A stretch of DNA of 24,328 bases, from IMG/VR virus record IMGVR_UViG_3300043395_000038, positions 1 through 24,328 of that record, one strand, 5' to 3'. Position numbers and translations under genes: made by a program. Position 1 is the first letter of the stretch; every line of letters starts with the position of its first letter. The notes below the pieces were generated by a model that was given only the letters and a program-made list of their open reading frames with translations, did not search any database and was not told the DNA's origin. Below, piece by piece: positions 7,277-24,328 of the stretch. This DNA comes from a virus.

Positions 7277-10200
7277 TATGACAAGCCCCAAACCTTATCT
7301 GTTTTCTTAGAAGATGTTTTAGTGAACATCTTGCTTCCAACATATAGAAGCGCAAATGTAGCTACCATAGAATACTTAGCAAAAATGCTAGGTTCTTTTT
7401 TACCGAATGAAGTGTTAGCAAACATTCTAGAAACTGACTTACCGATTCCCATGATAAACTTGCCATACTTATTATCAGTATCTCGAGCACCCATCATGTA
7501 TGACATGTGTTCTGCCCATGGACGAGCTACAGCTTCTGCCATTCTGATAGCAGTTTCAGTTTCTACCTGACGGCGAGTTTCAGCATCACGGATCCAGAAC
7601 ATGATGTTTGGATTGTTACCAGACATCCACTCTACAACGTGTTTAGCCCAGTTGATGTATCCGTAATAGACGTCAGGATCGTTAGCACGAAGCTGCTGTC
7701 CAAACTTTTCGTCCGCCAGATATGTAGTTTCGTCAAGCAGACCAAGCTGATAGAGCTTAGTGCAGATAATCGACGATCCGCAACTATCGCGAGCTGTAGA
7801 CACAGGAACTGCACCAAGATCTTGAGTTACGATATCGGTTTCTGTATATGTCTGATTATATGTTTGAGTTTCAGATACAGACTGCTGTGTGACTACTGGG
7901 CTTCGAATCGTTTGAACTGATTCTTGTGTCGTAGTAGCTTGACCACCAGCACTATATTGAGACTCAGCTGACGTTGTAACCAAACCAATCTGAGATGAGT
8001 TGGTTGGACTATCAGTCAGACGAATGATTTTGTTTCCTACAGTGAACTTTAGATTGTCGTCTGCTGGAATACGGAACAGCGCATGAACACGTCCTGCAGA
8101 ATCAACGTAGAGCGGATCACCTTCATCGCCAGTTGTTTCAAAAGCGATGTCAGTTGGTGTCATATATGCAGAAACGTCTACGCCGTCGAAGAATGTATAG
8201 AGTCTTGCGCCTGGCTTCATACCACGAGCTTCTACTTCGATCACGCGCGAGCGCATGTATGGAATCAAATTCGTATTTGTTACGAATGTTCCAAGGCTTT
8301 GAGTCGTTACGTTTTCTGTAATAACTGTTTGTGTGCCAGATCGCGTTCCAGTATAGTTTTGGCTATACGTTTCTGTTACGACATCATCTCTCCAGTAGTG
8401 ACCATTTTCTGTATATTGTTCACCATTCGTAGTTACAGTATCTGTAAGAGTTGGTGTGCCGTAAACATAATTGCCCCATGAACCCCACTCGGTCTGCCAT
8501 GAGTTAGACAGATAAACCCAGTTGTCATAGTTCTGATCAATATTGCTATTGATTTCAGGACCTTTTGTAGTATCAACCCAGTAGTCAACACTTGGATCGA
8601 TCTTCATAGTTCCGATCCAGTTGAACGCAATACCAGAGATGTTGCGGTTTGTAGTCGCGTATGGTTGACGAGAAGCAACTGTATGAGAATAAGGTAGAGT
8701 CGTAAGAGCAGCCATACGGTTTCCTGCGAAACCTGTGCTTCCTGTAACACTGTAAACGCCCAGTGCATCATATACAGTCGTTGAACCTGCAGCTGATGTA
8801 ATCGAAGCACCTACAGAGAAGTTAGCTGTGGCGTCTGTTACATAAACTCTATCGTTTACCTTATACAGAACTTTAGCTGTTCCAGAACCAACTGTGATCG
8901 TTTCGTTGTTAGCAAAAGCAATCTGTGAGTTAGCGATAGCTAGGCGTTGATCTTTGGATACGCCAGCAGTTGTTACGTTATTACGAACAATGTGTGACGA
9001 GTTTGCGCCATGATAAAATAACTCGAAGTTGTCCATCTTGAATGGTGCACGAAGTTCCTGTTTGATAGGATCAACTGCGATTGAGTAATCCGCGTCAAAA
9101 ACGTTACCGATGTTATGACCAGTAAATGAGTCAACAAGGAAACCGTTTTTGAAACGATCTAACCCATTTTCATCTTTCACTAGGAGAGATGAAGTATCTT
9201 TCTCAAGCATGTTGAGTGAAGTATAATACTCAAGACGGCTAATACGATCTGCAATGTTACCGATCGCGCGCATCGTATAGCGATTGTTCTTATATGGTTT
9301 CACCACAACTGCTTGATCACCGCGACCGTTTTCTCTCGCGACTTGTTCAGGAAGCGAAGGATATGGCGTTAGACGAATTGATGCCAGTGGCATAAAGTCG
9401 TCTGGAATATTTGGTGTGCGTGGGTTGTTTGATGGCGCACCACGGAGAGCAACAAGATCACCTTCCTTAGTCAAACCAACAGAGTCGATACGCATCATGT
9501 AGTTTGACAGGTCAGTTGTAAAGTCCTGACCAGGAGGTGAAAAGTGTAATCCACCAGATACAGTTGTGAATGTATTCGACGCTTTCGGATTCGTAGCGAT
9601 ATTAGTTACAGTTGTAACTGAGTTGGCGCTATCCGACTTGCGTGGGCGAATATCAATGCAGTTTCTCAGATCAAATGATTCACCTGTAGTTTTAGAGATG
9701 AATCTTGGAATCTGATATGTGTAGATCTTTGTGCGATCTGTTCCAGCTGTAGTATCGTTTACTGGATATGAGTCTACAGAGAAGAAACCTTTACCAGAAG
9801 TTGTCGAATGAGTAAAGTAGTCAAACTTTACGAGCAGACGGTCGCCAGAAGAAATCGTAAGATCACTTGATGATTTCTTTACGAGCTTCGCATGATCGTA
9901 ATAGTTATCGGTCATGCCTGTATCGAACGTGAAGTGCGACGTTACATCTGTGCCAGTATTATTAGCAACGAAGTCGCTGCCGCTCTGTTTACGAACAGAA
10001 ACTAGACGGAAACCATCTGACAGACCAAGACCCCATGGACCAGTCGCATTGGCGCTATAACCAGAACCACCACGATTGCTGCCAACGTGAATCTGAACTA
10101 AACGATCACGATTGATTGTCTTTGATGCTTCCTGACCGTCAATCTTATTGAGTGTAGCAATAACAGTCGCGCTGAAAGCTGCACCGAGCGTTCCTTCGTT

Positions 10201-12273
10201 CAAAGCAAGAGTTGCTGTAGTAGAAGGCGTGCCAGAAATAGTGATTGAACGATTACCTGACCTACCAGTTCCAGCTAGGTCGATGATCTGACCAGCTTTG
10301 AATCGTTTGAAATATGAAACACCAGTTTTACTTGCAGAAGCAGTTTTATAGAGCTTCAGTGATGTATTGTTTGTTACTTCACTTACAACATAATCCGCGT
10401 TGTTTGAAACGTGAATGATGTCACCCTTATTGATCTGCGTAGTGAATGATGTGCCTGAACCAGTTACAGTGTTTGAACCGCTCGTTACAGAAATCGTTCC
10501 TGTCAGCGTGGCTGTGTTTGATGAACCACGCGAAACAACGTAGAAATCTGTGCGAGTAGCTGCATCAGAAAGCAGACCTGAACCGTCAAATGTTTCGCTA
10601 GTGTCGCCAGTGTTGATCGTAGCTTGACCAGCTGCGTCAAATGTAACGTCGAATGACTTATAGAATGAGAAGTCAAGATCAATCGCATTCGTTGAGTCGC
10701 GTAGGCGACGAACTGCACGAGCAGGAAGTCTAAACAGTGCACGGTTGAACGAAGGATCTAGTGTGTTGGCGTTCTTGCCATTTGAACCAAGGATGTCAGC
10801 TTTACCATAAGACGTTCCGACGCCACCGTTGTAACCAACAGACTGAACGTTAGCGAATGAGTATCCAGCCTTCATTGTGATGTCAGACAGATACATCTTA
10901 TACTGAGCGTCTGGTGCGCCTGGTGTTCCAGTGTAGTATTCTAGACCGCGCACGCGAGCTGTTCCGAGCTCACCTGTTGGGAAGATCGTAGAAGAGAAAT
11001 TACCAGTTGATACTGAGTTAGCCTGCTGACTACGCAGAGAAACTACAGCTTGCTGATTTAGATCCCAGTTACCAACTACGTTATCGACGATAACATAATT
11101 GCCGTAATCAATAAGCGTCTTTGTGCCTTCTAGCTCTTCTACGTCCGTCGCTTTGTCGATCGTGATCTGTGTAGAAACTAGCTTCTCGATATCATAACCC
11201 TGAACGTATGCTACGCCAGGAGTTGCTTCAACAATCAACAGACTCGTGTTACCACCTTCACCTGAAGTGTAAACGCCATCGTTGTTGGCTGTCTTTAGAT
11301 GGGAACGAACCTTTGGTTGGAATCCGCGAACAACATAGTGACCAGACTCATCGAACGTGCGACGAGCGATATAGTCACGGATAGCAGCGTATTCAGGACG
11401 CCCACCTGTTTTCTGGAGAACGCCATTCTTCACTTGATTGAGTTCAATGAAGTTCGTTGTGTTCAGAGAAGATGTATAGTTTTGTTTTGCGAATACTGGA
11501 TCAAGTTTCAGACGAGCCGCACCAGGAGCAGCATAGTTATATGAACCCGAAGCAGGATCGAGAAGCGTTCCGTCAGTCGTTTCAGTAACGATAGTTTCAA
11601 GAACGTTTAGACCTACACGATATGAAGGAGTTGATGAGTAACGATCAAGAACAACTGTTTGCTGAGGAACACGAATGAAGTGATCTTTAGCGAAAATAAT
11701 ACCAGATCCAACAGTTGCTGCACTACCAACGCCTGTAGCAGAACCGAGTGCAGGCTTAATAGTATTCGCTGTTAGACTAGAACCAACTGGGCTGATAACT
11801 GTAAGAATTTCGTTATTGGCGAAACGTGTGTAACCAGTTGTTGTGTTTGATGAAAGATATTTTACGAACAGAGTCTTGAAGAATGGCGTATTAGACTGTG
11901 CGCCTTCACCGTAGTTTACAACAAGAGCTGTAATCTGTGAAGTAGTGCCTCTTACGATTGTGTTTACAAATGATGAAGGATCAACAGAAACTGTTCCTGT
12001 TGATGTGTTATCCATCAGCTTGACGTAGTTGTAATTATTATCTACACCAACAGAACAACCATTTACGATAGAACCTTCTTTGAAAACGTGCTCGCCAAAA
12101 CGGTCAATCTGATTCTGTAGAATCGACTGCATCTGCGTAAGTTCGCGAGCCTGCACAGCCAATCCTGGACGGAAAAGGATTCTATGATAGTTTTTTGTTT
12201 CATCGAAATCGTCGTAGTATGGTGCTACGTTCAAATTCGTAGAAAGCGTGACCGAGTTAGCCTGTGCAGCCAT
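7276..12273 (-). CDS. Giant DUF4815-type baseplate/tail structural protein, 1665 aa
   Basis: The start is MAAQANSVTL at ATG 12273, with GGAAGG four bases upstream. A TTG four codons earlier is also in frame but lies within the ribosome binding site. The N-terminal region (about 10-600) carries the signature of DUF4815 proteins of marine T4-like phages (PYYDDFDETKNYHRILFRPG, AVQARELTQMQSILQNQIDR). A beta module shared with two neighbouring genes sits at 592-659. A conserved fibre-like segment (NLIPYMRSRV.EVEARGMKP, YTFFDGVDVSAYMTP) is at about 1334-1372. It is flanked by two Thr/Gln/Glu-rich stretches that both end in TQ(S/D)LG. The C-terminal 170 residues form another domain beginning CGSSIICTKLYQLGLLDE, with RANDPDVYYGYINWAKHVVEWM. 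A hydrophobic helix near the end (VATFALLYVG, about 1635-1645) is followed by a lysine-rich tail. It probably replaces the T4 gp9-gp12 peripheral baseplate functions (inference). Confidence 0.8.
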   Translation of the reverse strand: MAAQANSVTLSTNLNVAPYYDDFDETKNYHRILFRPGLAVQARELTQMQSILQNQIDRFGEHVFKEGSIVNGCSVGVDNNYNYVKLMDNTSTGTVSVDPSSFVNTIVRGTTSQITALVVNYGEGAQSNTPFFKTLFVKYLSSNTTTGYTRFANNEILTVISPVGSSLTANTIKPALGSATGVGSAATVGSGIIFAKDHFIRVPQQTVVLDRYSSTPSYRVGLNVLETIVTETTDGTLLDPASGSYNYAAPGAARLKLDPVFAKQNYTSSLNTTNFIELNQVKNGVLQKTGGRPEYAAIRDYIARRTFDESGHYVVRGFQPKVRSHLKTANNDGVYTSGEGGNTSLLIVEATPGVAYVQGYDIEKLVSTQITIDKATDVEELEGTKTLIDYGNYVIVDNVVGNWDLNQQAVVSLRSQQANSVSTGNFSSTIFPTGELGTARVRGLEYYTGTPGAPDAQYKMYLSDITMKAGYSFANVQSVGYNGGVGTSYGKADILGSNGKNANTLDPSFNRALFRLPARAVRRLRDSTNAIDLDFSFYKSFDVTFDAAGQATINTGDTSETFDGSGLLSDAATRTDFYVVSRGSSNTATLTGTISVTSGSNTVTGSGTSFTTQINKGDIIHVSNNADYVVSEVTNNTSLKLYKTASASKTGVSYFKRFKAGQIIDLAGTGRSGNRSITISGTPSTTATLALNEGTLGAAFSATVIATLNKIDGQEASKTINRDRLVQIHVGSNRGGSGYSANATGPWGLGLSDGFRLVSVRKQSGSDFVANNTGTDVTSHFTFDTGMTDNYYDHAKLVKKSSSDLTISSGDRLLVKFDYFTHSTTSGKGFFSVDSYPVNDTTAGTDRTKIYTYQIPRFISKTTGESFDLRNCIDIRPRKSDSANSVTTVTNIATNPKASNTFTTVSGGLHFSPPGQDFTTDLSNYMMRIDSVGLTKEGDLVALRGAPSNNPRTPNIPDDFMPLASIRLTPYPSLPEQVARENGRGDQAVVVKPYKNNRYTMRAIGNIADRISRLEYYTSLNMLEKDTSSLLVKDENGLDRFKNGFLVDSFTGHNIGNVFDADYSIAVDPIKQELRAPFKMDNFELFYHGANSSHIVRNNVTTAGVSKDQRLAIANSQIAFANNETITVGSGTAKVLYKVNDRVYVTDATANFSVGASITSAAGSTTVYDALGVYSVTGSTGFAGNRMAALTTLPYSHTVASRQPYATTNRNISGIAFNWIGTMKIDPSVDYWVDTTKGPEINSNIDQNYDNWVYLSNSWQTEWGSWGNYVYGTPTLTDTVTTNGEQYTENGHYWRDDVVTETYSQNYTGTRSGTQTVITENVTTQSLGTFVTNTNLIPYMRSRVIEVEARGMKPGARLYTFFDGVDVSAYMTPTDIAFETTGDEGDPLYVDSAGRVHALFRIPADDNLKFTVGNKIIRLTDSPTNSSQIGLVTTSAESQYSAGGQATTTQESVQTIRSPVVTQQSVSETQTYNQTYTETDIVTQDLGAVPVSTARDSCGSSIICTKLYQLGLLDETTYLADEKFGQQLRANDPDVYYGYINWAKHVVEWMSGNNPNIMFWIRDAETRRQVETETAIRMAEAVARPWAEHMSYMMGARDTDNKYGKFIMGIGKSVSRMFANTSFGKKEPSIFAKYSMVATFALLYVGSKMFTKTSSKKTDKVWGLS
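10297..10500 (-). repeat. Shared beta module, copy in the DUF4815-type protein (residues 592-659)
   Basis: The segment begins GTISVTSGSNTVTGSGTSF, continues TTQINKGDIIHVSNNADYVV and SEVTNNTSLKL, and ends in YFKRFK. It aligns with modules in the 896-residue protein and in gp8: GT(V/I)-x5-SNT(V/I)-x-G-x-GT-x-F-x(2)-(Q/E)(L/I)-x(2)-GD. This copy is the most diverged of the three because it lacks the RVHSI and GANAYI signatures. Confidence 0.7.
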
Positions 12274-12285
12274 GATACCTTCCAA

Positions 12286-14109
12286 TTAGTATTTAATTGC
12301 TATCTTGTAATCTTCTGTCTGAGCTGGATCACGAAGAACAGCTTCTCTGTTTTCAACGTAGATAATCAACCCTGTGTGTGGTTGAGTAGCAGGTTCCGTC
12401 AATGAAACAACGTTTGCTGTTACTGAAGAAGTTGTTCCTGTAAGACGTTCGCCTGGAGTGAAACTTCCACCGATACCGTTCGTTGTGACTCTAATAACCT
12501 TAACCACACCTTGAGTTCTAGCAGCGTTTGTATTGGCAAAGTAAACTAATCTCGCCTTAGCTTTGCTGATAGAACCTGTTACAATTTCGTCTTCGATAAA
12601 GTCGCCGTTGACTAATGACACGTTGATTCTAGTCGTTTGATCAATAACCGAAGCGTTCGCATAAGAACCATTCGCAAGAATAGGATCTCTCATGATACCA
12701 ATCAAACGGAAATCGTTGTTTGTTGGGAACGTGTTAGACTCAGCTCCAGATGTTCTGATATTTAGGAACACAGTCGTGCCACCTAATTCGTCAACTGGAT
12801 CAGATCCATGTCCGCCTAAAGGCGAAAGGATTGGTCTTGCAGTAGCACCAAAACCATGTGATGAGTTAGCAGTGATCGTAGCGTTTGCATGACCATACGA
12901 ACGACCCTGACTGATAACAGTGATCTTACGAACCTGACCACCAAATGTATTCGACACATACGCAGTCGCGCGTGAAGTAGTCGTTCCACCAGAGTCGCCA
13001 CGGATCGTAACAAGCGGCGAAATGACATAACGACTTGATGTGTTTGGCGTAACAGTGAACGCTGAGTTAACGATCAGAGTATTGTTTGATCCCCAATACT
13101 TTACGATCTTACGAATTTGACCAGCAGCAGCACCTTCGCTGATAAACAGTCCAGAACCAACATATGTTCCGTCAATACCAGATGCAACCGACTTTAGCTT
13201 CATCCAAGTTGTGTTTGTAACAGTTTGGAATGTATTCGTTGTATGCAGATAACCAGCGCCGTTAGCGATAATCTTAATGTGATGAATTGCGCCATTGCCA
13301 GATGATCTTGCAGTCTGCTGAACAGTCCACTGCGCAGAACCGTCGTTGGCTGTAAGCGTTTTGACTGGCATATAATCAACCGTCAAGAACTTCAGGCGCT
13401 CACCAGCTGAAATCGTATACATATACTTCCAGCGATAACCATCAGCTGTAGAAACGATTGATGTGCCAGTTCCAGTTGGTTTTACTGTTGAGTTTGCACC
13501 ACGATTATTGTCGATACACTTATAGACGTTGTAGTCATCTGTGATCATAAAATAACGAAGTGAACCAGGAAGAGCTGTTAGTGAAACAACTGCTTTATCA
13601 TCCCACTCATTAAAGAATGTATTGTTAGCCCAATCAACGCGAGGAACTGCATGTGTTGCGTCCGACGATTGAATTTTCTTCATCGACATGATATCATCAC
13701 CGATATCGTAGTTGATGTTGAAATAGCTAGGTGTTACTGCTGGCGGTTGCTGTTCTGAAAACACTCTACGAATATAAGCATTCGCACCAGTATTGTTTGA
13801 ACCTGACGGGCGAGGTGTAACAACAATCGTTTGAGCAGTAGGAATAGAATGAACGCGAACTACAGTTGATTGACCAGTAATACCGATACGATCACCGACT
13901 GCAAGTTCAGACGTAAAATATGTTCCTTGACCAACGATAGTATTAGAACTCGTCGTTGTTTTCACGGTTCCTATGATAGGAATAGCATTGACAAACGGTT
14001 GTGGTTTGCCAATAAAGAAATAATAACGAGTAGGTGCAGACTCGCTCAGTCCTTCAAGGAACTGGTTAGCCTGCAATACTCTAAAACGACGAGGAACTAA
14101 TCCAGGCAT
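12286..14109 (-). CDS. 8: Baseplate wedge subunit gp8-like, 607 aa
   Basis: T4 gp8 is a wedge component that dimerises and links gp7, gp10 and gp6. Here the gp8 signature runs in order: YYFFIGKPQPF (29-39), VPRVDW (155-160), YNVYKCIDNN (193-202), DGYRWKYMYTI (223-233), YMPVKTL (246-252), and the terminal IYVENREAVLRD...EDYKIAIKY. The end corresponds to the T4 gp8 terminus, 'MIYMENRPPI...EEINILFTF'. The protein is nearly twice the T4 length (334 aa, recalled). One insertion (47-115) is a module also found in the two flanking large proteins. A second long insertion (about 275-545) is beta-rich and contains another F.PGERLTG-type repeat. The ATG overlaps the upstream stop as TAATG. It acts in the baseplate wedge. 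Confidence 0.88.
   Translation of the reverse strand: MPGLVPRRFRVLQANQFLEGLSESAPTRYYFFIGKPQPFVNAIPIIGTVKTTTSSNTIVGQGTYFTSELAVGDRIGITGQSTVVRVHSIPTAQTIVVTPRPSGSNNTGANAYIRRVFSEQQPPAVTPSYFNINYDIGDDIMSMKKIQSSDATHAVPRVDWANNTFFNEWDDKAVVSLTALPGSLRYFMITDDYNVYKCIDNNRGANSTVKPTGTGTSIVSTADGYRWKYMYTISAGERLKFLTVDYMPVKTLTANDGSAQWTVQQTARSSGNGAIHHIKIIANGAGYLHTTNTFQTVTNTTWMKLKSVASGIDGTYVGSGLFISEGAAAGQIRKIVKYWGSNNTLIVNSAFTVTPNTSSRYVISPLVTIRGDSGGTTTSRATAYVSNTFGGQVRKITVISQGRSYGHANATITANSSHGFGATARPILSPLGGHGSDPVDELGGTTVFLNIRTSGAESNTFPTNNDFRLIGIMRDPILANGSYANASVIDQTTRINVSLVNGDFIEDEIVTGSISKAKARLVYFANTNAARTQGVVKVIRVTTNGIGGSFTPGERLTGTTSSVTANVVSLTEPATQPHTGLIIYVENREAVLRDPAQTEDYKIAIKY
13765..13971 (-). repeat. Shared beta module, copy in gp8 (residues 47-115)
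   Basis: The segment begins GTVKTTTSSNTIVGQGTYF, continues TSELAVGDRIGI and RVHSIPTAQTI, and ends in GANAYIRR. It closely parallels the 896-residue protein's GTVAVSSVSNTVTGTGTNF, TQLKVGDVVRI, RVHSITNATSF and GANAYIK. T4 gp8 has no such segment between its first strand and the VPR-DW motif (from recalled sequence), so it is an insertion here. Confidence 0.75.
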
Positions 14110-14690: not shown

Positions 14691-17381
14691 TTATGGACCT
14701 GTGCTGTAGTAAATTTCGACATTCGCCTGAGTCGGGATATAGTTTTGACGAATCGTAAATGCGGTATTCGAGAAGATCGTATTGACGTTGAATATCGTTG
14801 TATTTGATCCGCCAACTGGAACGATGTATAGGTTTGAACCGATGCCACCGACGTTGATTGATCCAGTATTCGCGAACATGGCTCCATTCGCGAAAGCATA
14901 TGGACCAGCAGTTCCGATAACCAGTCTTGGCGTATCGTCGAACGCACCAACTGTAATAGCTGCGTATGGTTGAATGTTTGCTGTAGCCCATGCTTGGATC
15001 TGCGAGTTTGCATACAGAACTTTTCCATATACACCCGACATATAAGCGAAACGCTGACCCTGATGAGAAACAGCAGCGGTAATCGACTCTGTGATATTCG
15101 TATTAGCGATGAACGTTGCGTTCTGAGTTTCGAGAGCAGCGATGAGCTCAGTTCTTCTCGTATTTGCGGTGTATACTGCATCTTCAGCCGAGATCGTTGT
15201 AACAGATTCTGCTCTAGCTGTATTGGCTAAGAAAGTTGCATTACGTGTTTCTGTCGCAGTGACAGTTTCAACCATAAACGTGTTCGCGATGAACGTTGCA
15301 GATGGCGTATCAACAGATGTGATAGCTTCTGTGATACTTGTATTAGCAAGGAACGTTGCTGTATGCGAAACAGCAGCTGTGATTGCTTCTGTAACGTTGA
15401 TGCCGTTATTATATACAGACGGACCATCGTGTGTCGCTGTAGCAGTAATCGTTTCACGAACCGAACGACGAACAACGTTTGGTGCTTCGTCGATCAGCGT
15501 CAGGTTGACGTTTGCTGTAGCAGTTACCAGATAGTCGCCAAATAGCTTCGTTCCTGAAGGATGCACGAGAGCTTTGATGACGTCTCTATACTTGCTGAGA
15601 ATTTTATCAGCTCTGATAACATACGAGAACTCTTGATAGTAGTTGTTATCTTGAAGTTTGTTGTTCCAACTCAAGAAACCTTTCGTATCAATGTAACGTC
15701 CTGGGAACGAGATAAAGCCAGATGTTTTAGCTTGACCAGTCGCGCCGTATGTTTTCTTTCTGTTAAGATAACGATTGCTAGACGAACCGTTCGCATATCC
15801 GCTGCTCAGTGTATCAATGATAGCAGCGTTAGACTGTGTTCTATTGAAGATAATAGAATCGTCGTATTTGTTGAAGTTAGATCCTGGCGTCAATACACGG
15901 ATCTTAGAAATAGTTCCTGGCGCGTTGTTTGCAATAACAACTGCATTGTTTCCGTAGATGTTACCGAAACCGTCAGAGATTTCCAAGTTATCCATGAAGT
16001 CGTCGACGATTCGAATCGTAGGAAGCGAAGACGAATATCCATATCCTGGATTGATCAATGTGATCGCATTGATTGAATAGAACTCTGCATTACTGAATGT
16101 AAGAGCAGTCGTCAGCGTTGTGTAAACGTTTGCGCCAGCGAGCTTGATATAAGCATTCGCACCAGAGAGCGTCTGGAATGGAGTGAACGCAGAGATAAAT
16201 GAAGTCGCATTCGTAATCGAATGAACACGAGCAGTATTAGCTACACCATAGATACGAACGACATCGCCAACTTTAAGCTGTGTAACGAAGTTTGTTCCCG
16301 TTCCTGTAACGGTATTAGATACTGAAGATACAGCTACTGTTCCAGATAGTTTTCTTGTTACAGTTGCGCTGTTTGCGCCTTTTCTTAGGAAGAATGAAGG
16401 TGTATCTAGTCTTACGTTCTTTACAGCGCCAATGATATCTGTGTTGATAGTCAGACCAGATGCGATTGGTTGCTGGCTAAATGATTCAATTTTAGCTTCG
16501 AAGTTCTTTCCATTGCCGCCAGATACGATAAGACGTGTGTTTTCTTTCGTGTATCCAGAACCTGCTTTTACAATTTTTAGTGTAACTGCGCTTTTGTTCG
16601 TAACCTCAGCAACAGCAGCAGTAGCAATTTCTGTAGAACCAGCTCCGCTGATTTCTACTGTATCACCTAGATTATGATATGCACCGCCATCTTTGATATT
16701 AACATCAACGATCGAACCAACTTGCGAGTTAACAGTAACATATTGGCTTGTGTTGTCGATGTTGACTACACGTTCACCGTCAATAAATGTTCCTGAAACG
16801 TTACGAACGTTCATATCATAGACTAGAAGACCTAGAGCTTCTGTGGCGATGATATCTTCAACGAATGCAGTTGCGCCAGATGTAACGCCACGAATACGAT
16901 ATCCTTCGAATGAGCGCGGACTTACGCTAGAAGGTGAACCAACGCGGAGTCTAGTTTCCTGTGACCAACGACCATCAGACGCACGAAGGATATCGTCACC
17001 TGGATAATAGAAGTCAATTTCTGAGCCAAACAGCGCACGGAATAAAAAACGATAAGATTCTTGTGAACCGCGTGTGCGATAGAAGTCACGGATATGCTTG
17101 ACAAGTGTTCTTTTATCAGCAAGAACATCTTTTGGAATGTTAAGCATAAACTCTTTGCGAAAGTATTCAACAAAAGAGTCGATAGTTCTGTCGATATCTT
17201 GATTGTCTTTGATTGAGCGGATGGCATTGACTGCGTTTCCACTCTGCTCCATATACTCAAAATAGGCTTTGAGAAACGCAACAAACTGCGGACCTTCGTC
17301 ACGAACGAACCCAGGAAACTGCGATTCGATCTGAGAAGATATCTTCTTGAAAATATCGTCTGCGCCTACAATGTTAGCCAT
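14691..17381 (-). CDS. Large baseplate structural protein in the gp7 position, 896 aa
   Basis: The N-terminal 170 residues form a domain I recall from many marine T4-like phages: FVAFLKAYFEYMEQSGNA, LVKHIRDFYRTRGSQESYRF, LFRALFGSEIDFYYPGDDIL, RASDGRW. It is followed by beta-rich repeats of the F.(D/P)GE.V type (GTFIDGERVV), a module shared with gp8 and the DUF4815-type protein (347-413), and a conserved segment around residues 560-615 (FPGRYIDTKGFLSWNNKLQD, YYQEFSYVIR, VIKALVHPSGTKLFGDY). A run of six 20-residue tandem repeats (662-781) precedes the C-terminal beta domain. The gene lies between gp6 and the 184-aa gene plus gp8, where T4 has gene 7, so it may be the functional counterpart of gp7. 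Sequence similarity to T4 gp7 is not evident. TAATG overlap with the gp6 stop couples translation. Confidence 0.75.
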   Translation of the reverse strand: MANIVGADDIFKKISSQIESQFPGFVRDEGPQFVAFLKAYFEYMEQSGNAVNAIRSIKDNQDIDRTIDSFVEYFRKEFMLNIPKDVLADKRTLVKHIRDFYRTRGSQESYRFLFRALFGSEIDFYYPGDDILRASDGRWSQETRLRVGSPSSVSPRSFEGYRIRGVTSGATAFVEDIIATEALGLLVYDMNVRNVSGTFIDGERVVNIDNTSQYVTVNSQVGSIVDVNIKDGGAYHNLGDTVEISGAGSTEIATAAVAEVTNKSAVTLKIVKAGSGYTKENTRLIVSGGNGKNFEAKIESFSQQPIASGLTINTDIIGAVKNVRLDTPSFFLRKGANSATVTRKLSGTVAVSSVSNTVTGTGTNFVTQLKVGDVVRIYGVANTARVHSITNATSFISAFTPFQTLSGANAYIKLAGANVYTTLTTALTFSNAEFYSINAITLINPGYGYSSSLPTIRIVDDFMDNLEISDGFGNIYGNNAVVIANNAPGTISKIRVLTPGSNFNKYDDSIIFNRTQSNAAIIDTLSSGYANGSSSNRYLNRKKTYGATGQAKTSGFISFPGRYIDTKGFLSWNNKLQDNNYYQEFSYVIRADKILSKYRDVIKALVHPSGTKLFGDYLVTATANVNLTLIDEAPNVVRRSVRETITATATHDGPSVYNNGINVTEAITAAVSHTATFLANTSITEAITSVDTPSATFIANTFMVETVTATETRNATFLANTARAESVTTISAEDAVYTANTRRTELIAALETQNATFIANTNITESITAAVSHQGQRFAYMSGVYGKVLYANSQIQAWATANIQPYAAITVGAFDDTPRLVIGTAGPYAFANGAMFANTGSINVGGIGSNLYIVPVGGSNTTIFNVNTIFSNTAFTIRQNYIPTQANVEIYYSTGP
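15039..15398 (-). repeat. Six 60-bp in-frame tandem repeats (20-residue units)
   Basis: Residues 662-781 of the 896-residue protein divide without gaps into six 20-residue units: NVTEAITAAVSHTATFLANT, SITEAITSVDTPSATFIANT, FMVETVTATETRNATFLANT, ARAESVTTISAEDAVYTANT, RRTELIAALETQNATFIANT and NITESITAAVSHQGQRFAYM. The consensus is xxTExITAxxxxxATFxANT. A further degenerate unit (VRETITATATHDGP..., 641-661) precedes them. The copies have diverged at the DNA level, so the array is old and under protein-level selection. Confidence 0.85.
16143..16343 (-). repeat. Shared beta module, copy in the 896-aa protein (residues 347-413)
   Basis: The segment begins GTVAVSSVSNTVTGTGTNF, continues VTQLKVGDVVRI and RVHSITNATSF, and ends in GANAYIK. 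It is the closest relative of the module inserted in gp8, and a more diverged copy lies in the DUF4815-type protein. Confidence 0.75.
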
Positions 17382-19273
17382 TAGAAGTTATACAGCCTAA
17401 TTGATGGAGTTTGGATCGTAGCAGTTTGACCAATCGTATCAATGTTTGAAGCAGTTGCTACAGTTTGATTTGTTTTATCATTTACGATATCAATTCGAGT
17501 CTGTGAGATCAACAGAATCTGATTACGAACAGGCGTAATGTTTGGCGAATAAGGTGACACGAATACAGAAACACCTGTTCCGCTATATGCAGAAGCAGAG
17601 AATGAATTGATATTGACGATACCGTTTTCGTAGTCAATCGTTCCTGCGTTGTAATTAGTATAGATTCGACCTAGTCGTCCAGCAAGTGAACGATAGTAAA
17701 CTCTTAGAGTGCCAAATCCGTTGTCGTCAAAGAACGACTCGTTCGTTCCGTATGTAAACGATGAAGAGGTAACAGCGCCATATCCTGGATGGCGAGTTAC
17801 TCCACTGATCAATTCAGCAGGTCCAAGTTTCTGTAGAGCTGTATTGAAATTGATTGTATGATTGCTTGCTACTGTAGTAGACGGAACAAACATCTTTCTC
17901 AAACGAATGTTAGCATTCGTTGTTCTGATTGAATCATCAGTTCCATCGAGCCAATCAAGGAAACGTGAGTATCTAAAGCTCTTGTTGAAGTTAGATAGAT
18001 TGTTAGTCTCAAACGAAATTACTCGTGCAGCGACTGCGCTTGCTAGTTCGCCAGGAGTTAAATTCGTAGCAGACGCATCGTAACGAACTGTAACTTCAGG
18101 AACGATGTAAAGATAAGAAGGATCAACCATCTCAACATCAATCGACTGAACGTTATATTTCTTGATGTTAGCAATGATCTCAGCTTTTCTATTCAGCGAG
18201 AACACTGTGCTGTTTCTTGGTTTGGCTGCTACGAATACTTTGCCGTAGATTGGTGGATCGTTTTCTTCACCACCCCAAACGCTGATAGCTTGAATATCAG
18301 GATTCTGTTTAAGAGCAATTCGTTCGTAGTCTTGCGACGTCACTGTGCGATTTTGTGTTTCGTATGCGCGAGGAGCATTGAATCGTAGTGATTCGATAGA
18401 TTCAATTTCTGCGCCACCAGAAGCACGACCAACAGGAACGATTGTGATATCGCTCTGTCCATCAATAGTCGTGTTAGAAAGCGAGAACGAATTAGCACCA
18501 TTAGGCGCGATTCCGTTACATACACGATAGTTCACTGTTACGATAGATGCAGTTGCTGGCAGTTTACCTAGAACACCGTCGCCAAACGAAATCTTATACT
18601 TTTTTTGTCTATCAGCTTCAATAAAGAATATCTGTGATGAAGAGTTGCTCGTCATCAGATCATCAGCTGGAACGTATGTTTGAACGTTGCCGCTAGTTGT
18701 AACAGAAACTGTGATGCTTGTAGTATCTACGTTCTCGTTTGGTAGAACGAATGATGTGTTTGATGTTCTATTGAACACATAACGATGTGATAAAGGAGTG
18801 CCTTCTTTGATATTGATATGATGAGCAAATCCACCAGATGAGTTTGCTGTGATCGTATATGTCTGAGGCGTAACGAATGTGTATGATGTGCCATTCACAG
18901 TTGTCGTAAACTGTGTGTTTTTAGGAACACGAATAGAACGGAAAGTTGTGTTGGCGATGCTTGACGTAAAAATCAGCTGAACGTTAGCAGTCGCACCACG
19001 AGCAGACGTTGGAGAATATCCGAGCGTTTTTGCGTGTGAAACAACGCTATCATACTGCTGAGCTGTATCAAGGAATCCTTCATTCGTAGCCATATTAGCA
19101 TAGAATGCGTTCATGTATGTGTTATACGCAAGAAGATCTAGCAGCGTTCCGAGCGCAGAGTCATTGAAATCATAATCCGTGAACTCAGGTTTCGACGCAA
19201 TATAAGTGCGCAAGTTGGCACGGATAGTATCGAAGTCCAATCCTGTAACGACGAGATCAGTATTTGTAGCCAT
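17381..19273 (-). CDS. 6: Baseplate wedge subunit gp6, 630 aa
   Basis: T4 gp6 forms the inner ring that ties the six wedges together around the hub. The match is visible throughout. FTDYDFNDSALGTLLDLLAYNT (31-52) and NEGFLDTAQQYDSVVSHAKTLGYSP (64-88) form the N-terminal helical part. The baseplate J-like core shows SFGDGVLGKLP (229-239), SLRFNAPRAYETQNR (295-309), VTSQDYE (311-317), SVWGGEENDPP (331-341) and YGKVFVAAKP (343-352). The length is close to T4 gp6 (660 aa, recalled). ATG 19273 overlaps the gp25 stop as TAATG and the gene ends in another TAATG with the next one. The 25-6 adjacency is common in contractile tail and T6SS clusters. There is no sign of truncation. Confidence 0.93.
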   Translation of the reverse strand: MATNTDLVVTGLDFDTIRANLRTYIASKPEFTDYDFNDSALGTLLDLLAYNTYMNAFYANMATNEGFLDTAQQYDSVVSHAKTLGYSPTSARGATANVQLIFTSSIANTTFRSIRVPKNTQFTTTVNGTSYTFVTPQTYTITANSSGGFAHHINIKEGTPLSHRYVFNRTSNTSFVLPNENVDTTSITVSVTTSGNVQTYVPADDLMTSNSSSQIFFIEADRQKKYKISFGDGVLGKLPATASIVTVNYRVCNGIAPNGANSFSLSNTTIDGQSDITIVPVGRASGGAEIESIESLRFNAPRAYETQNRTVTSQDYERIALKQNPDIQAISVWGGEENDPPIYGKVFVAAKPRNSTVFSLNRKAEIIANIKKYNVQSIDVEMVDPSYLYIVPEVTVRYDASATNLTPGELASAVAARVISFETNNLSNFNKSFRYSRFLDWLDGTDDSIRTTNANIRLRKMFVPSTTVASNHTINFNTALQKLGPAELISGVTRHPGYGAVTSSSFTYGTNESFFDDNGFGTLRVYYRSLAGRLGRIYTNYNAGTIDYENGIVNINSFSASAYSGTGVSVFVSPYSPNITPVRNQILLISQTRIDIVNDKTNQTVATASNIDTIGQTATIQTPSIRLYNF

Positions 19274-19692
19274 TAGCGAACCCTATTGAGACTGATATCT
19301 AACTGGATATCATTGAGTGTAGTTGCGTTACGGAATCGAATCGTAATGAACATTTCATTACTATCGGTGCTTTCTCTGACGTTGACAGAGTATGTATCCA
19401 AAAGAGCTCTAGGCTCATAGTTTTCTATAGCATTCACGATCAGGTTTTCGAACTCAGACTTCGTGAATGAAGTATATAGATCGAACAAACGTGAACGAAT
19501 GTTACCGCCAAACTCTGGGCGAAACGGGCGCTCAAACTGATCTGTTAGGATCAGGTTCTTGATAGACTGCTTTAGCGCATCGTCGTCCTTTTTAACCAAG
19601 AGCTTGCCACTAGTCGGATGACGTCTGAACTGCAGATCGAAGTCACGATAGGTGATCTTGTTTAGGACTGGCGGTAACGGTCTTTTTTTCAT
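19273..19692 (-). CDS. 25: Baseplate wedge subunit gp25, 139 aa
   Basis: This is the gpW/gp25 family protein that nucleates sheath assembly on the baseplate, the counterpart of T6SS TssE. The hallmark EPR motif is present at 93-95 within ENYEPRALLDTYSV. Upstream lies the conserved helix-turn region LKQSIKNLILTDQFERPFRPEFGGNIRSRLFD (40-71), which matches the family's 'T..geR...P.fGs.l...lF' pattern. The length is normal for the family (T4 gp25 is 132 aa, recalled). The ATG at 19692 follows AAAGGGAAAGAG, a good ribosome binding site. It is the first gene after the largest gap in the window and probably the first gene of the wedge transcription segment. Confidence 0.95.
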   Translation of the reverse strand: MKKRPLPPVLNKITYRDFDLQFRRHPTSGKLLVKKDDDALKQSIKNLILTDQFERPFRPEFGGNIRSRLFDLYTSFTKSEFENLIVNAIENYEPRALLDTYSVNVRESTDSNEMFITIRFRNATTLNDIQLDISLNRVR

Positions 19693-19768: not shown

Positions 19769-21184
19769 TCAAACGGTCATAGTGGCTGTATTTGCCTTGG
19801 CTGCTGCGGCTGCGTCATCCTCTTCAATGATAATCAGAGCCTCAATGACGCTCGTTGTTGGCTTGATTCGTGGATACTTCTTAATGAGATCAGGATAGCT
19901 GTATTTCGTCAGCTTACTATAATCAACTATTCCCAGCAGTTCTTTAGTTTCGTTCTCGATTTTAGAACTGATTTCAAGTCTGCGCTTTTCCCTTAGCTGT
20001 TTAGTTGTATCACGACCATATCCACCAGAACCCCAGTTGACCGTGTTTGCGTTTCCGTTGAGTTTCTGATTGTATGACGTCTTAGCTGGAGACTCTGCAC
20101 TCAGATTAGTTTGAGGAGCAATCGTTGATTTGATACCCATGAACTGTGACATAGGTTGATTCAACGTAGCCATAGCAGAACCAGCAGCTGACTCAGCAAA
20201 CAAGTTCTTCATCTGAACAGGTGGTTTCGGTTTAGGAGGATTCGCAGTCTTAATCGCTTTCATTGCATCCATAACTGGTGTGACGCCAGGAATAGGAAGC
20301 ATCTTGATAGCACCAGCTGCAAGATTCATATTAGGAACCATGCTCTTGATATTGAAACCTGCTCCTCCGAGCGCACCACCGATAGCACCTGCAATCATAT
20401 TCGATGCTAGTTTGTTCACGTTTATCATCGGGAACTGACGTGAAATCAAAGCTGCTTGAGCTGCAAATGCTACAGGATTGCTAGCAAGTTTAGCCATGTT
20501 AGCAACTTGACTCTGTAGATTTACAGTCTGAGCGATAGCTCCTAGTCCAGGAATATCTGATAAGAAGTTTCCTTTCACAGCAGCAAAGATTAACGAACCA
20601 GGACCTTTGACTGCTACGTTCATCAACGTCTTAACAGTTGCGATCTGATTAACGATATCAGCTGCACCTGCTGCTTTGAATGGTAGCTGTTTAACGACAC
20701 CACCGATAACACCCTTAACTGCTTGAACAGGAGCATCTAAACCAGCAGGGAGAAAGTTACCAGCGACTCCCGCGAGTGCGCCTGCTGCTCCTGTAACGAG
20801 CGCACTCTTGATAGCATTGTCGATTTGAGCTTTAGAGGTGTATTGTGGACCACAGAAAGGATCGTTAACAGATGCCAAAGCTCCGTAAAGCGCGCCTCCT
20901 AATGCGCCGCCAAGAACACCATCAAGATTTCCTGTAAGGGCTGCAGAGATACTAGGATCTAGCTGAAACGTCGGAGGAATGAATCCTAGCGGATCGCTCA
21001 TCATCATAGAAACGTTTCTAGTATCAACTAGATCAGGGAATGCGCGTGACAGATCGTCTAACTGATCGTTGATAACATCAAGACCAGTATAGGTGTATTG
21101 CTTACCACAAAAGACATATTTGTCTCCTGGCATAGCATTTGGATATCGCATTCTTAGTCTAGTATCAATTTGTAACTGATCCAT
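19769..21184 (-). CDS. Unrecognised Gly/Ala-rich protein with glycine-zipper segments, 471 aa
   Basis: I do not recognise a family. The N-terminal 75 residues are soluble-looking (MDQLQIDTRLRMRYPNAMPG, YVFCGKQYTYTGLDVIND). The middle is hydrophobic and rich in small residues, with repeated GxxxG/GxxxA packing: GVLGGALGGALYGALASV (89-106), GAAGALAGVAGNFL (132-145), GVIGGVVKQL (158-167), AGAIGGALGGAGF (265-277). A proline/lysine linker (PPKPKPPVQ, 316-324) leads to a polar region, then a charged helical C-terminus (TTKQLREKRRLEISSKIE...) ending in an EEDDAAAAAK tail. Cysteines are at 26 and 111. ATG 21184 follows the PAAR stop by one base, with TAGGATAA as ribosome binding site. The position between spike tip and gp25 suggests a hub-associated or injected protein that may interact with membrane; this is inference. 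Confidence 0.75.
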   Translation of the reverse strand: MDQLQIDTRLRMRYPNAMPGDKYVFCGKQYTYTGLDVINDQLDDLSRAFPDLVDTRNVSMMMSDPLGFIPPTFQLDPSISAALTGNLDGVLGGALGGALYGALASVNDPFCGPQYTSKAQIDNAIKSALVTGAAGALAGVAGNFLPAGLDAPVQAVKGVIGGVVKQLPFKAAGAADIVNQIATVKTLMNVAVKGPGSLIFAAVKGNFLSDIPGLGAIAQTVNLQSQVANMAKLASNPVAFAAQAALISRQFPMINVNKLASNMIAGAIGGALGGAGFNIKSMVPNMNLAAGAIKMLPIPGVTPVMDAMKAIKTANPPKPKPPVQMKNLFAESAAGSAMATLNQPMSQFMGIKSTIAPQTNLSAESPAKTSYNQKLNGNANTVNWGSGGYGRDTTKQLREKRRLEISSKIENETKELLGIVDYSKLTKYSYPDLIKKYPRIKPTTSVIEALIIIEEDDAAAAAKANTATMTV

Positions 21185-21185
21185 C

Positions 21186-21473
21186 TTATCCTACCGTTAC
21201 TGAACCTAAGCCACTCGATGCGTTTGGCGCACAGTGCGGACCGCCTGGAATTGGGCATAAACTATCTGGAGCCGCGCTATCACCAACAACAATAATTCCC
21301 TTACCATTAATCGTAATGGAAGCATGAGAAGTGGATAATGCTCCACCTCCGTCGGTATTTCCATCACCGTCGACAGAGATCAACTTACCTCCAGCGAATA
21401 CTGTGGACTGACCTGATACAATTGTCGTGGCTCCGCATGTGCGTGAGTCGTCTTGTCTATGAATTGCTGCCAT
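21186..21473 (-). CDS. 5.4: PAAR-domain spike tip protein (gp5.4-like), 95 aa
   Basis: PAAR proteins cap the beta-helical spike of contractile injection systems with a sharp, metal-stabilised cone. The protein is the usual size and shows the family's layout: an N-terminal hydrophilic start (MAAIHRQDDSRTCG), a glycine/serine-rich centre with FAGGKLISVDGDGNTDGGG, a STSHASITINGKGIIVVGD strand pair, and a PDSLCPIPGGPHCAPNAS loop. Candidate metal ligands are His5, Cys13, His50, Cys73, His80 and Cys81. The start overlaps the beta-helix stop as TAATG, in the order expected for a spike followed by its tip. Having Cys at several positions where many PAAR proteins use His is a small oddity. The family assignment is confident; the exact ligand set is inferred. 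Confidence 0.85.
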   Translation of the reverse strand: MAAIHRQDDSRTCGATTIVSGQSTVFAGGKLISVDGDGNTDGGGALSTSHASITINGKGIIVVGDSAAPDSLCPIPGGPHCAPNASSGLGSVTVG

Positions 21474-22192
21474 TATGGATTCATCTGAATTGTGCTGCCC
21501 TTGATAGTATTCGTTGAAGAAGCCTCAAGAGTCATTGTTCCACCGTTTGCTTTAACAGTCGTATTCGTTCCTGAAGCAATACCTAGATCACCACCAGACC
21601 CTAGTCCCATCCCTCCAGCAGACACGACTTGATATTCACCACCAATAAGAACTGCATTATCATTAGATATGATCTGAGTATTTTCACCACCAATCGTTTG
21701 ATTATTATCAAGCCCAATTGACTCTGTGTTATTCCCACCAGTAATGGTCTCACGATCAAGAGATGTTCTATGGGATGTTTTGCCGTTGACCTGCACTCGC
21801 TGATCACCACCGAACTCCATCACGTTCTTACCAGAAGCTTTTACGCGGAAGTCACCATGCGTTACGATCTCATAGTCGCCCTTAACTTCCTGCTTCATAT
21901 TACCAGTGATGTGCATAATGACATCGCCGTTTACTGATAGATTGAAGTTCCCTGTAATTTTTTCGTCTTTACCTTGATTAAGGAACTCTTGCGTTTTTCC
22001 CTGAACCTTAGAAATACGCGCACCATCGTCCATGATTTCAATGAACGTTCCTGATGCATGATAAACGTGAATGCGTCTATCGCCAGGAGTATTATCAATC
22101 TCGATCATGTGACCAGCTTCGGTCTTGATCGTATGATTTCCTAGATACTGTGACTTCTTGCCGCCTGGTTCTGTTTCATTTACCTTAGCCAT
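21473..22192 (-). CDS. Baseplate spike beta-helix protein (gp5 C-terminal domain-like), 239 aa
   Basis: Residues 76-195 fall into fifteen consecutive 8-residue units in register, for example DEKITGNF, NLSVNGDV, IMHITGNM, KQEVKGDY, EIVTHGDF, RVQVNGKT, NQTIGGEN and AVLIGGEY. This is the octad repeat (around VxGxxxxx) of the T4 gp5C trimeric beta-helix needle. The preceding segment (GNHTIKTEAGHMIEIDNTPG, RRIHVYHASGTFIEIMDDGA) is the conserved lead-in seen in gp5 and VgrG proteins where the OB-fold passes into the helix. The C-terminus, GGTMTLEASSTNTIKGSTIQMNP, continues the helix toward the PAAR tip. In T4 this is the C-terminal part of a single gp5 chain; here it is its own gene with its own start (AAGGTAAATC before ATG 22192). 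It forms the membrane-piercing needle. Confidence 0.88.
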   Translation of the reverse strand: MAKVNETEPGGKKSQYLGNHTIKTEAGHMIEIDNTPGDRRIHVYHASGTFIEIMDDGARISKVQGKTQEFLNQGKDEKITGNFNLSVNGDVIMHITGNMKQEVKGDYEIVTHGDFRVKASGKNVMEFGGDQRVQVNGKTSHRTSLDRETITGGNNTESIGLDNNQTIGGENTQIISNDNAVLIGGEYQVVSAGGMGLGSGGDLGIASGTNTTVKANGGTMTLEASSTNTIKGSTIQMNP

Positions 22193-22200
22193 GATTTACC

Positions 22201-22965
22201 TTATCCGAATGGTGATGAAGGAGTGACGTTTGTATCTCCTGGATTATTTTTAATCAGCTCTGCAGCTTCGTCTGGTGCGTTCTGAAGACTATTAGTTGCA
22301 CCTACGTCATCACGAGCTTGATCCAGCGATGCCAGTTCCCAGTCCATTCCATTTGGACCCTGACCTTTATTAGGATCAACCGCATCAAATCTTACGACCT
22401 TAGGCGGCAACGGTGCGCTATCTACTGTTTTCTTGCGACTCTTTACTGCTGTTTCTTCTTCACGTTCTTCATTACCAGAAGCAACTAGAGAAGTAGACGA
22501 CTGATCATCTAGAACTGGATGAACAGAAGGAACAGGTGAAATGCCATTCTGTCCGCCAAATAATAGATTCAGCGAGTTCATGAGCAAATTAAGTCTTGCA
22601 TATCGCTGACGCATGTTGTATGCTTGCTGTGCAGCTCGCGGTCTAGCTGGTGCAATAATAGTTAGCTCTTGAGTTGAGTCGTCAGATGCTATAATTCGAT
22701 TTGTGCTGATATCATAGACGATAGCTTCAACTTCGTATGTGCCAGGATAAAGCGGCGAATCAAAATGCAGCTTCCATTGCTTAGGATTTTTTGTTTCGTC
22801 GATACCAAGATTGCCTTCGAAGAGTCGATACGGAACATAATTCACATACACTTCAATAGACTCTTTAGGATTTCCCTTAGAATCAAAACGCTCAAAGTCA
22901 ACCGTTCCCGTCAGGATCGGAGTCGTATTAGACGTCGCTAGTTTGTTTACAGTGATCTTTGCCAT
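22201..22965 (-). CDS. Ig-like domain plus disordered linker protein in the gp5 cluster, 254 aa
   Basis: The N-terminal 107 residues look like a bacterial Ig-type beta-sandwich: VNKLATSNTTPILTGTVDF, SIEVYVNYVPYRLFEGNLGI, KQWKLHFDSPLYPGTYEVEA and IVYDISTNRIIASDDSTQEL. They match the pattern 'PvltGtv...l.V.Vng..y........W.l......GtYeVea.v.D.agN'. A basic helix follows (AAQQAYNMRQRYARLNLLMN). The second half is low-complexity and highly charged (GNEEREEETAVKSRKKT), probably disordered, ending in a Pro/Asn-rich tail. No lysozyme motif is seen, although in T4 gp5 the lysozyme domain lies between OB-fold and beta-helix, which is exactly where this gene lies. The start overlaps the OB-fold gene's stop as TAATG. 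It is probably a hub structural or host-contact protein. The Ig call is from pattern only. Confidence 0.72.
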   Translation of the reverse strand: MAKITVNKLATSNTTPILTGTVDFERFDSKGNPKESIEVYVNYVPYRLFEGNLGIDETKNPKQWKLHFDSPLYPGTYEVEAIVYDISTNRIIASDDSTQELTIIAPARPRAAQQAYNMRQRYARLNLLMNSLNLLFGGQNGISPVPSVHPVLDDQSSTSLVASGNEEREEETAVKSRKKTVDSAPLPPKVVRFDAVDPNKGQGPNGMDWELASLDQARDDVGATNSLQNAPDEAAELIKNNPGDTNVTPSSPFG

Positions 22966-23351
22966 TATGCCTTACCAGATCCTGGCGCACTAGGTTGTGC
23001 ATCATTTTTCTGCTGAATGTGTGGTAGCACACCAAACACGATAGGATATTGACCTGCGTCACCGTCTAGGAAAAATCCAAGCACCTTTGAATTCTCTACG
23101 ATACCAGTAGGGCTATGACCTATTCCGCTGATAGTCGCAGATGTTGTTGGCATCAACACATAACACCACGGAAGCTCTTTAGTTGGTAGCTTTCCCTTAT
23201 CTTCTGTGTGATGACCTTTGATACGAACCTTGATACGACCAAGTTTCAGTTCATCTTTTTGTCCAGAAAACTGTCCAGTGCCTCGGTCCTCTACGATACC
23301 GATCCACCACTTCATACCTTCCTGACCCATCACTGTGCCGAAATCAGCCAT
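22965..23351 (-). CDS. 5: Baseplate hub OB-fold protein (gp5 N-terminal domain-like), 128 aa
   Basis: This corresponds to the OB-fold at the start of T4 gp5, which sits on the gp27 hub trimer and carries the spike. Visible signatures are KWWIGIVEDRGTG (14-26), KLGRIKVRIKGHHTEDKGKLP, LPWCYVLMPTTSATISGIGHSPTG, and VLGFFLDGDAGQYPIVFGVLPH. These follow the family pattern 'W.G.Ved..DP...GRvkVri.G.H......lP...LPWa.vm.p......G.G..P.gl..G..V.G.F.DG....PvI.G'. The chain stops about 15 residues after that, with a Pro/Ser/Gly tail, so the lysozyme and beta-helix parts of gp5 are absent from this chain. Both ends overlap neighbours as TAATG. It acts at the centre of the baseplate. Confidence 0.9.
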   Translation of the reverse strand: MADFGTVMGQEGMKWWIGIVEDRGTGQFSGQKDELKLGRIKVRIKGHHTEDKGKLPTKELPWCYVLMPTTSATISGIGHSPTGIVENSKVLGFFLDGDAGQYPIVFGVLPHIQQKNDAQPSAPGSGKA

Positions 23352-24328
23352 TATCCTACTCCAGAATTTCCACTAGATGCTTTCTTTGAGTCACTCTTAC
23401 ACTGCAAAATGCACTCATATTTCATATCTTTATCGTCACGATATGTAATATGGCGAACCGCAGTAATCAAATAATCGCCTGAACGTTTGTCGATTTGATT
23501 CGATTCTTGGTTTGCAGGAATACGAAGATTGACCTTGACGCCTGGTTTATATTTTACAAATCCAGGAACACGAACGTTCATTACTAGATTATCTAGTTGA
23601 TTTGCAGCCGAGCTCTTAGCGCCGTGCTCAGGTAATGTTCTTTTACGCTGCTTGATCGTAGGATCGCGTGAGTCTCTAAACTTACTCTGCGAAAAACCAG
23701 GAGCAACTACGAAATTGAATCGTTGACCACGAGCAGACTGCTCTTCGCCTGTTGTAGGGCTGCGACCTGTATGAGTCGTATCACCAGCTCCATCGCGCTT
23801 AGATCCACCACCAATCACACCAGTCGTAGGATCATAGAAATACCAGTGATCAGAGTTAGAACCATTGAACGTTGAGTCTAGCTGATTCGTATCGGTCTGC
23901 TGATCAAATGCAATAATCTTAGTTGCAGGATCACCACCTGCTTTACCGATATTCTGAGTTGCGTATGATAGAGTCGCTATTGAACTGCTCTGTAGCATCT
24001 TATCAATCGTCTTGAAATGATATCCATCACGATCCTGATAATAAACATAGTTTGATGCTTTGGCTTCTGCTGATTTACCTTCTTTACAAGCCCAACGAAG
24101 AACAGCGATAGGACTACGACCCGTTCCTGTATATGCCGACTGACCTTCTGTCGATTCAGTTGTTACTAAGCTGGTCTTGAGTGAAGTCGCCGACTTGATA
24201 TATTCGTCATGAACTTCTTTTACGATCTCGTCTATCTTTTTACCCTGATATGACTTCACGATCTCTTTTGCATTATTATCAATGAATTCGCTAGGGACGC
24301 AGTTGATCTTATATGTATCCTGATTTTC
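23351..24328 (-). CDS. 27: Baseplate hub protein, gp27-like, partial (C-terminal 325 aa)
   Basis: The frame is open to the right edge, so the N-terminus is missing. A GTG at 24259 is only an internal valine codon, because 23 sense codons precede it without a stop. Recognisable hub features are VPSEFIDNNAKEIVKSYQGK and IDEIVKEVHDEYI at the start, and APIAVLRW-type and YVYYQDRDGYHFKTIDKML segments (the 'single-residue-rich aromatic YxD..GYxF.siD' motif of gp27-like hubs), then a C-terminal barrel (NLVMNVRVPGFVKYKPGVKV, GDYLITAVRHI). T4 gp27 is about 391 aa (recalled), so roughly a sixth may be missing. It forms the trimeric hub ring on which the downstream OB-fold/spike proteins sit. The stop overlaps the OB-fold start as TAATG. 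Confidence 0.8.
   Translation of the reverse strand, partial: ENQDTYKINCVPSEFIDNNAKEIVKSYQGKKIDEIVKEVHDEYIKSATSLKTSLVTTESTEGQSAYTGTGRSPIAVLRWACKEGKSAEAKASNYVYYQDRDGYHFKTIDKMLQSSSIATLSYATQNIGKAGGDPATKIIAFDQQTDTNQLDSTFNGSNSDHWYFYDPTTGVIGGGSKRDGAGDTTHTGRSPTTGEEQSARGQRFNFVVAPGFSQSKFRDSRDPTIKQRKRTLPEHGAKSSAANQLDNLVMNVRVPGFVKYKPGVKVNLRIPANQESNQIDKRSGDYLITAVRHITYRDDKDMKYECILQCKSDSKKASSGNSGVG

Follow-up and report, generated by a model that had tools for sequence, protein, structure and literature searches.

Organization of the spike locus

The window analyzed here, 24.3 kilobases (kb; positions 1 to 24,328) of IMG/VR record IMGVR_UViG_3300043395_000038, is a genome fragment from a relative of Kyanoviridae among the T4-like phages, and it encodes a baseplate hub and central spike in which the parts corresponding to T4 gene 5 are found in separate genes. 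Starting from the right end, the minus strand carries the hub gene, cut by the contig end, followed by the genes for an OB-fold protein, a protein of 254 amino acids (aa) with an immunoglobulin (Ig) fold, a beta-helix needle, a PAAR tip, a 471-aa protein, gp25 and gp6, after which come further wedge and fibre-like genes. Overlaps of one nucleotide (nt), in the form TAATG, join hub to OB, OB to Ig, and helix to PAAR. The features are as follows:

23351..24328, minus strand: baseplate hub protein in the gp27 position, N-terminus lost at the contig end (PHROG_350)
22965..23351, minus strand: stand-alone gp5-type OB-fold protein, 128 aa (Pfam Gp5_OB, PDB T4 gp5)
22201..22965, minus strand: Ig-fold protein, 254 aa (AlphaFold2 model and fold search)
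21473..22192, minus strand: gp5C-type triple-stranded beta-helix needle, 239 aa (family profile against T4 gp5; PHROG_430)
21186..21473, minus strand: PAAR tip protein, gp5.4 equivalent, 95 aa (Pfam PAAR)
19769..21184, minus strand: conserved 471-aa protein (p471) with no known fold, found in 28 aligned relatives
19273..19692, minus strand: gp25 baseplate wedge, context (Pfam GPW_gp25, 1.7e-11)
17381..19273, minus strand: gp6 baseplate wedge, context and tree marker (PHROG_219, 2.2e-154)

Searches of IMG/VR yielded 43 distinct contigs encoding a close relative of the OB protein (59-99% identical, truncated copies included); in about 40 contigs the identity is 72-99%. The OB-Ig-helix order is complete in 36 of these contigs and is preceded by the hub in 32, always as separate open reading frames (ORFs), and no ORF fusing two of the parts was detected in any of the 43. 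The separate encoding of the spike parts, proposed in an earlier reading of the sequence alone, is thus upheld. In the gp6 tree, the 18 sampled members form a single clade with 100/100 support, and the stem of this clade measures about 1 change per site; the split needle is encoded by an entire branch of T4-like phages that are uncultured.

The sequence-only reading had also equated the order of the spike genes with the domain order of VgrG. This order does not point to kinship with VgrG; it is simply the one inherited in T4-like phages, gp53-hub-gp5-...-gp5.4-gp25-gp6, as in Aeh1, avDM12 and Vibrio phage 6E35.1a. The Pfam family Phage_GPD (VgrG) was not found, and hub, OB and needle, which are on one chain in VgrG, are separate ORFs in the 36 contigs.

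Homology of the spike components

Profile searches of the PDB align the OB family with T4 gp5 residues 4-100 (4e-16; Pfam Gp5_OB, 6.6e-17) and the helix family with residues 384-578 (1e-15), the helix protein also aligning with positions 330-538 of PHROG_430 (2.1e-35) and hitting Gp5_trimer_C under the Pfam cut-off (1.4e-4). By these matches, the two proteins are the two ends of T4 gp5. Neither of them has a counterpart of the T4 lysozyme stretch (gp5 residues 174-339) or gave a lysozyme hit in Pfam or PHROG, and a motif search of the OB, Ig and helix proteins of the clade did not find the post-OB linker motif GF-DP-x-G-x-YP of other gp5 proteins. The PAAR protein was recognized by Pfam over the cut-off (3.3e-6).

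The hub, which is 402-420 aa long in the relatives, belongs to the Kyanoviridae hub family (PHROG_350 tail protein, 3.5e-40; hhalign to Kyanoviridae hubs, 99.9%), whereas the hhalign probability against T4 gp27 is only 4%. The earlier label of a gp27-like hub is less secure than it was put; synteny and the annotation of Ochrobactrum phage OC speak for it.

The Ig-fold protein in the lysozyme slot

Neither Pfam nor PHROG yielded a match for the 254-aa protein. An AlphaFold2 model built with 32 homologues predicts a confident beta-sandwich for residues 1-108 (predicted local distance difference test, pLDDT, about 85-93), with the remainder mostly below 60, and the ordered part resembles Ig V-type folds with Z scores of about 10, including VIA (Z 10.3, 2.3 Å over 97 residues; a predicted model). 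The Ig domain is followed by a short helix (118-136), a conserved stretch left unstructured in the model (135-182) and a variable tail; the part beyond the Ig domain is probably disordered. Conservation in the 135-182 stretch equals that of the Ig domain (0.69 vs 0.68, compared to 0.40 in the variable tail), although AlphaFold2 assigns no structure to it, which suggests a partner-binding segment.

Searches for a lysozyme or peptidase in this protein with Pfam, PHROG, PDB sequences and folds were all empty; this lack of any sequence match, together with the fit of the model to Ig folds, supports an Ig-like protein without lysozyme. Thus, the earlier proposal of an Ig-like protein without a lysozyme motif in the lysozyme slot is borne out on both counts. 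A search of BFVD with the Ig model returned nothing significant, and the phage Ig protein Hoc was listed in the viral fold search without significance. Two candidate origins were rejected: a hidden Markov model of the gp5 linker scored real 135-182 sequences no better than shuffled ones, and a comparison of the Ig protein with the middle part of cyanophage gp5 gave no match.

Two types of spike tip

The tips were compared across the 36 complete cassettes, with needles of 260 aa or more defined as long. Twenty cassettes have a long needle (271-300 aa), and in none of these was a PAAR gene detected by blast; among the short-needle cassettes, 10 have PAAR by blast and 3 more have a divergent PAAR recognized by Pfam, the leftover loci being L037, with a gene of PAAR-like size, and two truncated ones. 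PAAR-specific searches of entire records found none in 8 of 10, including records of 85 kb and 139 kb, and the two with PAAR are short-needle. At complete loci of this clade, a long needle without PAAR and a short needle with PAAR are thus mutually exclusive.

The nearest relative of the window phage (hub 91%, OB 99% and Ig 95% identical) has the long tip and no PAAR, unlike the short needle and PAAR of the window. The two are nearly identical in OB and Ig yet differ in the tip, the mark of a recent tip exchange. When the helix gene of L001/L017 is set against positions 21186-22192 of the window, the nearest relative is seen to differ in exactly the tip.

A wall hydrolase encoded beside gp26

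In relatives with longer contigs, gp26 is encoded on the other strand, past gp48 and gp53 on the upstream side of the hub, and is followed by a gene for a 698-1010-aa protein with VanY/M15 peptidase domains. All relatives with a contig that extends to the gp26 locus have this protein, and most of them have it with an exchangeable muramidase or glucosaminidase domain, in agreement with the earlier suggestion that the wall enzyme is carried elsewhere; a VanY search detected it in 10 of 13 records, and the other three stop before or at that place. In the nearest relative, its gene is 4.5 kb from the hub.

Pfam recognizes VanY and Peptidase_M15_4 in this protein, the latter at about 1e-18 (2.7e-18), and there is a weak PDB match of the M15 domain to 2vo9; in the alignment, the first M15 domain retains the H-x6-D pair and the later WGG-W-D-H motif, as in L-alanyl-D-glutamate peptidases. 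A third domain, located between or before M15 and VanY, is Phage_lysozyme2 (1e-28), Glucosaminidase (1e-8), VgrG3-like_C (3e-42) or a region unrecognized by Pfam. This catalytic domain is swapped among relatives (L081, L085, L087, L088, L090, L098, L100, L101, L104 and L106). The T4-type Phage_lysozyme (PF00959) was not found in the records of five relatives. The helical N-terminal part has a weak tape-measure PHROG match (0.0016); a direct comparison with the tape measure protein of Cr30 gave no match.

In Ochrobactrum phage OC, Cr30 and Melnitz, these domain families are part of gp5. Given that OC and Cr30 carry domains of the same kinds within gp5, the clade seems to have unhitched the hydrolase domains from the needle. 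From its gene neighbors and helical N-terminus, we infer that the gp26-side protein is carried in the virion. The window stops short of the gp26 locus, and the genome of this phage presumably encodes the protein just past the contig end.

A model of the spike and its alternatives

Once the T4 spike has assembled, gp5 is cut at residue 351, leaving gp5* on gp27 and gp5C on gp5.4 (PMC7600766), and the lysozyme domain (residues 174-339) packs on the upper needle (PMC4576200). Needle and OB part are accordingly separate chains in the mature T4 virion, and the supposition that the split spike needs a new non-covalent way of holding the needle is overstated, T4 already holding its needle without a covalent link. 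The finished spike of the clade, in which hub, OB, needle and PAAR would each be a chain of its own, would be close to the mature T4 spike after gp5 cleavage, so that gene fission would achieve here what proteolysis does in T4. Given that the lysozyme is gone and the Ig protein is encoded in its place, the latter is the likeliest protein to take over this packing: it would fill the structural place of the T4 lysozyme, bridging OB/hub and upper needle as a clasp, whereas the gp26-side wall enzyme would travel in the virion and be released at infection from the hub or the tube lumen. We give an even chance to this reading as a whole, that is, a Kyanoviridae-like T4 phage hub and central spike with gene 5 broken into separate genes, including its inferred parts. 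The clasp function itself is a tentative assignment, somewhere between rather unlikely and as probable as the whole, and the further proposal that this new clasp, having replaced the T4 lysozyme as the bridge, makes needle and tip exchangeable cartridges is, in our view, rather unlikely. If it is true, the long-needle tips without PAAR and the short-needle tips with PAAR would be swaps of such cartridges.

Several points weigh against the reading as a whole. The Ig protein is placed in the virion or at the needle by gene position only, and the OB-Ig-helix association reflects a single ancestral event, so its recurrence across contigs is not independent evidence. Furthermore, the window does not reach the gp26 locus, so the phage's own hydrolase gene is not seen in it, and the gp26-side protein may instead serve as an endolysin when the host is lysed.

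Two improbable alternatives concern the Ig protein. It might be an assembly chaperone, absent from the virion, for the folding of the beta-helix or its docking on the OB ring, given that it is small, partly disordered and encoded immediately before the needle, and that fibre-folding chaperones are encoded next to their client genes (PMC4576200); these chaperones, however, lie downstream of the fibre gene whereas the Ig gene is upstream of the needle, and the combination of an Ig fold and a conserved extended segment is seen more typically in structural proteins. With much the same low probability, it might be a baseplate adhesin or carbohydrate binder near the spike with no part in holding the needle. 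Phage particles commonly bind host surfaces through Ig-like domains, and Hoc did surface, without significance, in the viral fold search; however, the gene belongs to the spike operon rather than to the fibres, and its moderate conservation (41-58% identity among most relatives) lacks the hypervariability usual for adhesins.

Lower still is the probability that the gp26-side hydrolase is the lysis endolysin and that entry proceeds without a peptidoglycan hydrolase. The best PHROG matches of its M15 domain are endolysin families, and it matches the Listeria phage L-alanyl-D-glutamate peptidase, but its size of 900-1000 aa, its helical N-terminal region with the weak tape-measure match, its place between gp26 and another structural-looking gene and the occurrence of the same domain families within gp5 of OC, Cr30 and Melnitz speak against this. 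Programmed frameshifting that yields an OB-Ig fusion, such that the genes would not be truly separate, is highly improbable: the downstream frame is indeed -1 relative to OB in most relatives, but this follows from the TAATG or ATGA start-stop overlaps, the window has no slippery heptamer within the final 120 nt of either OB or hub, and in L037 OB and Ig are apart and in another frame. A sequencing or assembly error that broke one gene, a concern voiced in the sequence-only reading, has nothing in its favor and is in practice excluded by identical boundaries, with no fusion, in 36 distinct contigs of 40-99% identity.

The split spike shows that the domains of contractile-injection spikes can be uncoupled in evolution, with needle, OB seat, tip and wall enzymes inherited separately, so that tips can be swapped without the enzymes and enzymes without the tips. 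The Ig protein is a testable candidate for the needle holder where the lysozyme clasp is gone, and the gp26-side hydrolase, if its putative virion role is real, amends the view of these phages as having no hydrolase for entry.

Comparison with known systems

The spike of the clade resembles the T4 gp27-gp5*-gp5C-gp5.4 spike in its homologous OB and needle, its PAAR tip and the baseplate gene neighborhood. Unlike the clade, with separate genes and the Ig protein between them, T4 cleaves one product with the lysozyme between, and the clade lacks the T4-type linker motif and encodes hydrolases elsewhere. The pelagiphages HTVC008M and Mosig, relatives by the gp6 tree, also have OB and needle without lysozyme, but their gp5 is one chain of 350-361 aa and there is no Ig protein. 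In the cyanophages S-CREM1 and S-H38, gp5 likewise has no recognized lysozyme and M15/tail-lysozyme proteins are encoded between gp26 and hub (the S-CREM1 protein at this spot is annotated as M15 family metallopeptidase), whereas gp5 is a single 815-828-aa chain with a hydrophobic middle part. A gp5 without recognized lysozyme is further found in Pseudomonas phage Astolliot and Vibrio phage 6E35.1a; hence the lysozyme-less spike of the sequence-only reading is real but not special: such loss is common and is seen among cyanophages and pelagiphages as well as in part of the Straboviridae. An earlier study reported that gp5 diverges strongly among marine T4-like phages (PMC7029224).

Methylophage Melnitz divides OB and needle between two genes, and is annotated accordingly, but with peptidase-like domains on both pieces and no Ig protein. 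Because Melnitz falls apart from the clade in the gp6 tree, its two-gene gp5 is probably a separate event. The Melnitz gp5 pieces (MZ577097, L006:9980-13023) contain weak VanY/M15-like domains (1.1e-4 and 0.04, neither reaching its Pfam cut-off), and the phage was described as having no other lysin-like genes (PMC9004378). The Anabaena myophage A-1(L) also combines a spike without lysozyme with wall hydrolases on another baseplate protein (PMC10966104), although these are fused to the hub and the spike is one chain. In the VgrG/PdpA/IglG spike of the Francisella type VI secretion system, needle, cap and tip are separate proteins (PMC5924787), but this is a secretion system, its needle has no OB and no Ig protein is known. 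Thus, there are precedents for split spikes, for spikes without lysozyme and for hydrolases carried by other tail proteins; no description of their combination, throughout a clade, with a conserved Ig protein in the slot was found in the literature searched.

Two other gp5 proteins were noted in addition: the Straboviridae gp5 of Vibrio phage 6E35.1a (L129:1904-3169), annotated as tail lysozyme, is 421 aa long, too short to hold OB, lysozyme and needle all together, and that of Agrobacterium phage OLIVR5 (L112:7971-8885; 304 aa) by eye combines OB with a CHAP/NlpC-like domain, with no beta-helix on the chain.

Other proteins encoded in the window

The conserved, Gly/Ala-rich p471, which has no known relative, always lies between the spike genes and gp25, except in L005 and L013, where it is between helix and PAAR. 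It has no PDB match, and its AlphaFold2 model is of low confidence (mean pLDDT 50); the possibility that it is a displaced middle part of cyanophage gp5 was rejected (hhalign probability 0.4-1.3%). At positions 1-681, the end of the tail gene cluster, there is a cut protein with a PP-loop-like CYSGGNDS motif and no Pfam match. Three baseplate proteins (14691-17381, 12286-14109 and 7276-12285) share a similar module of ~70-140 aa with the pattern GT-V-SNTV-G-GT-F-GD.

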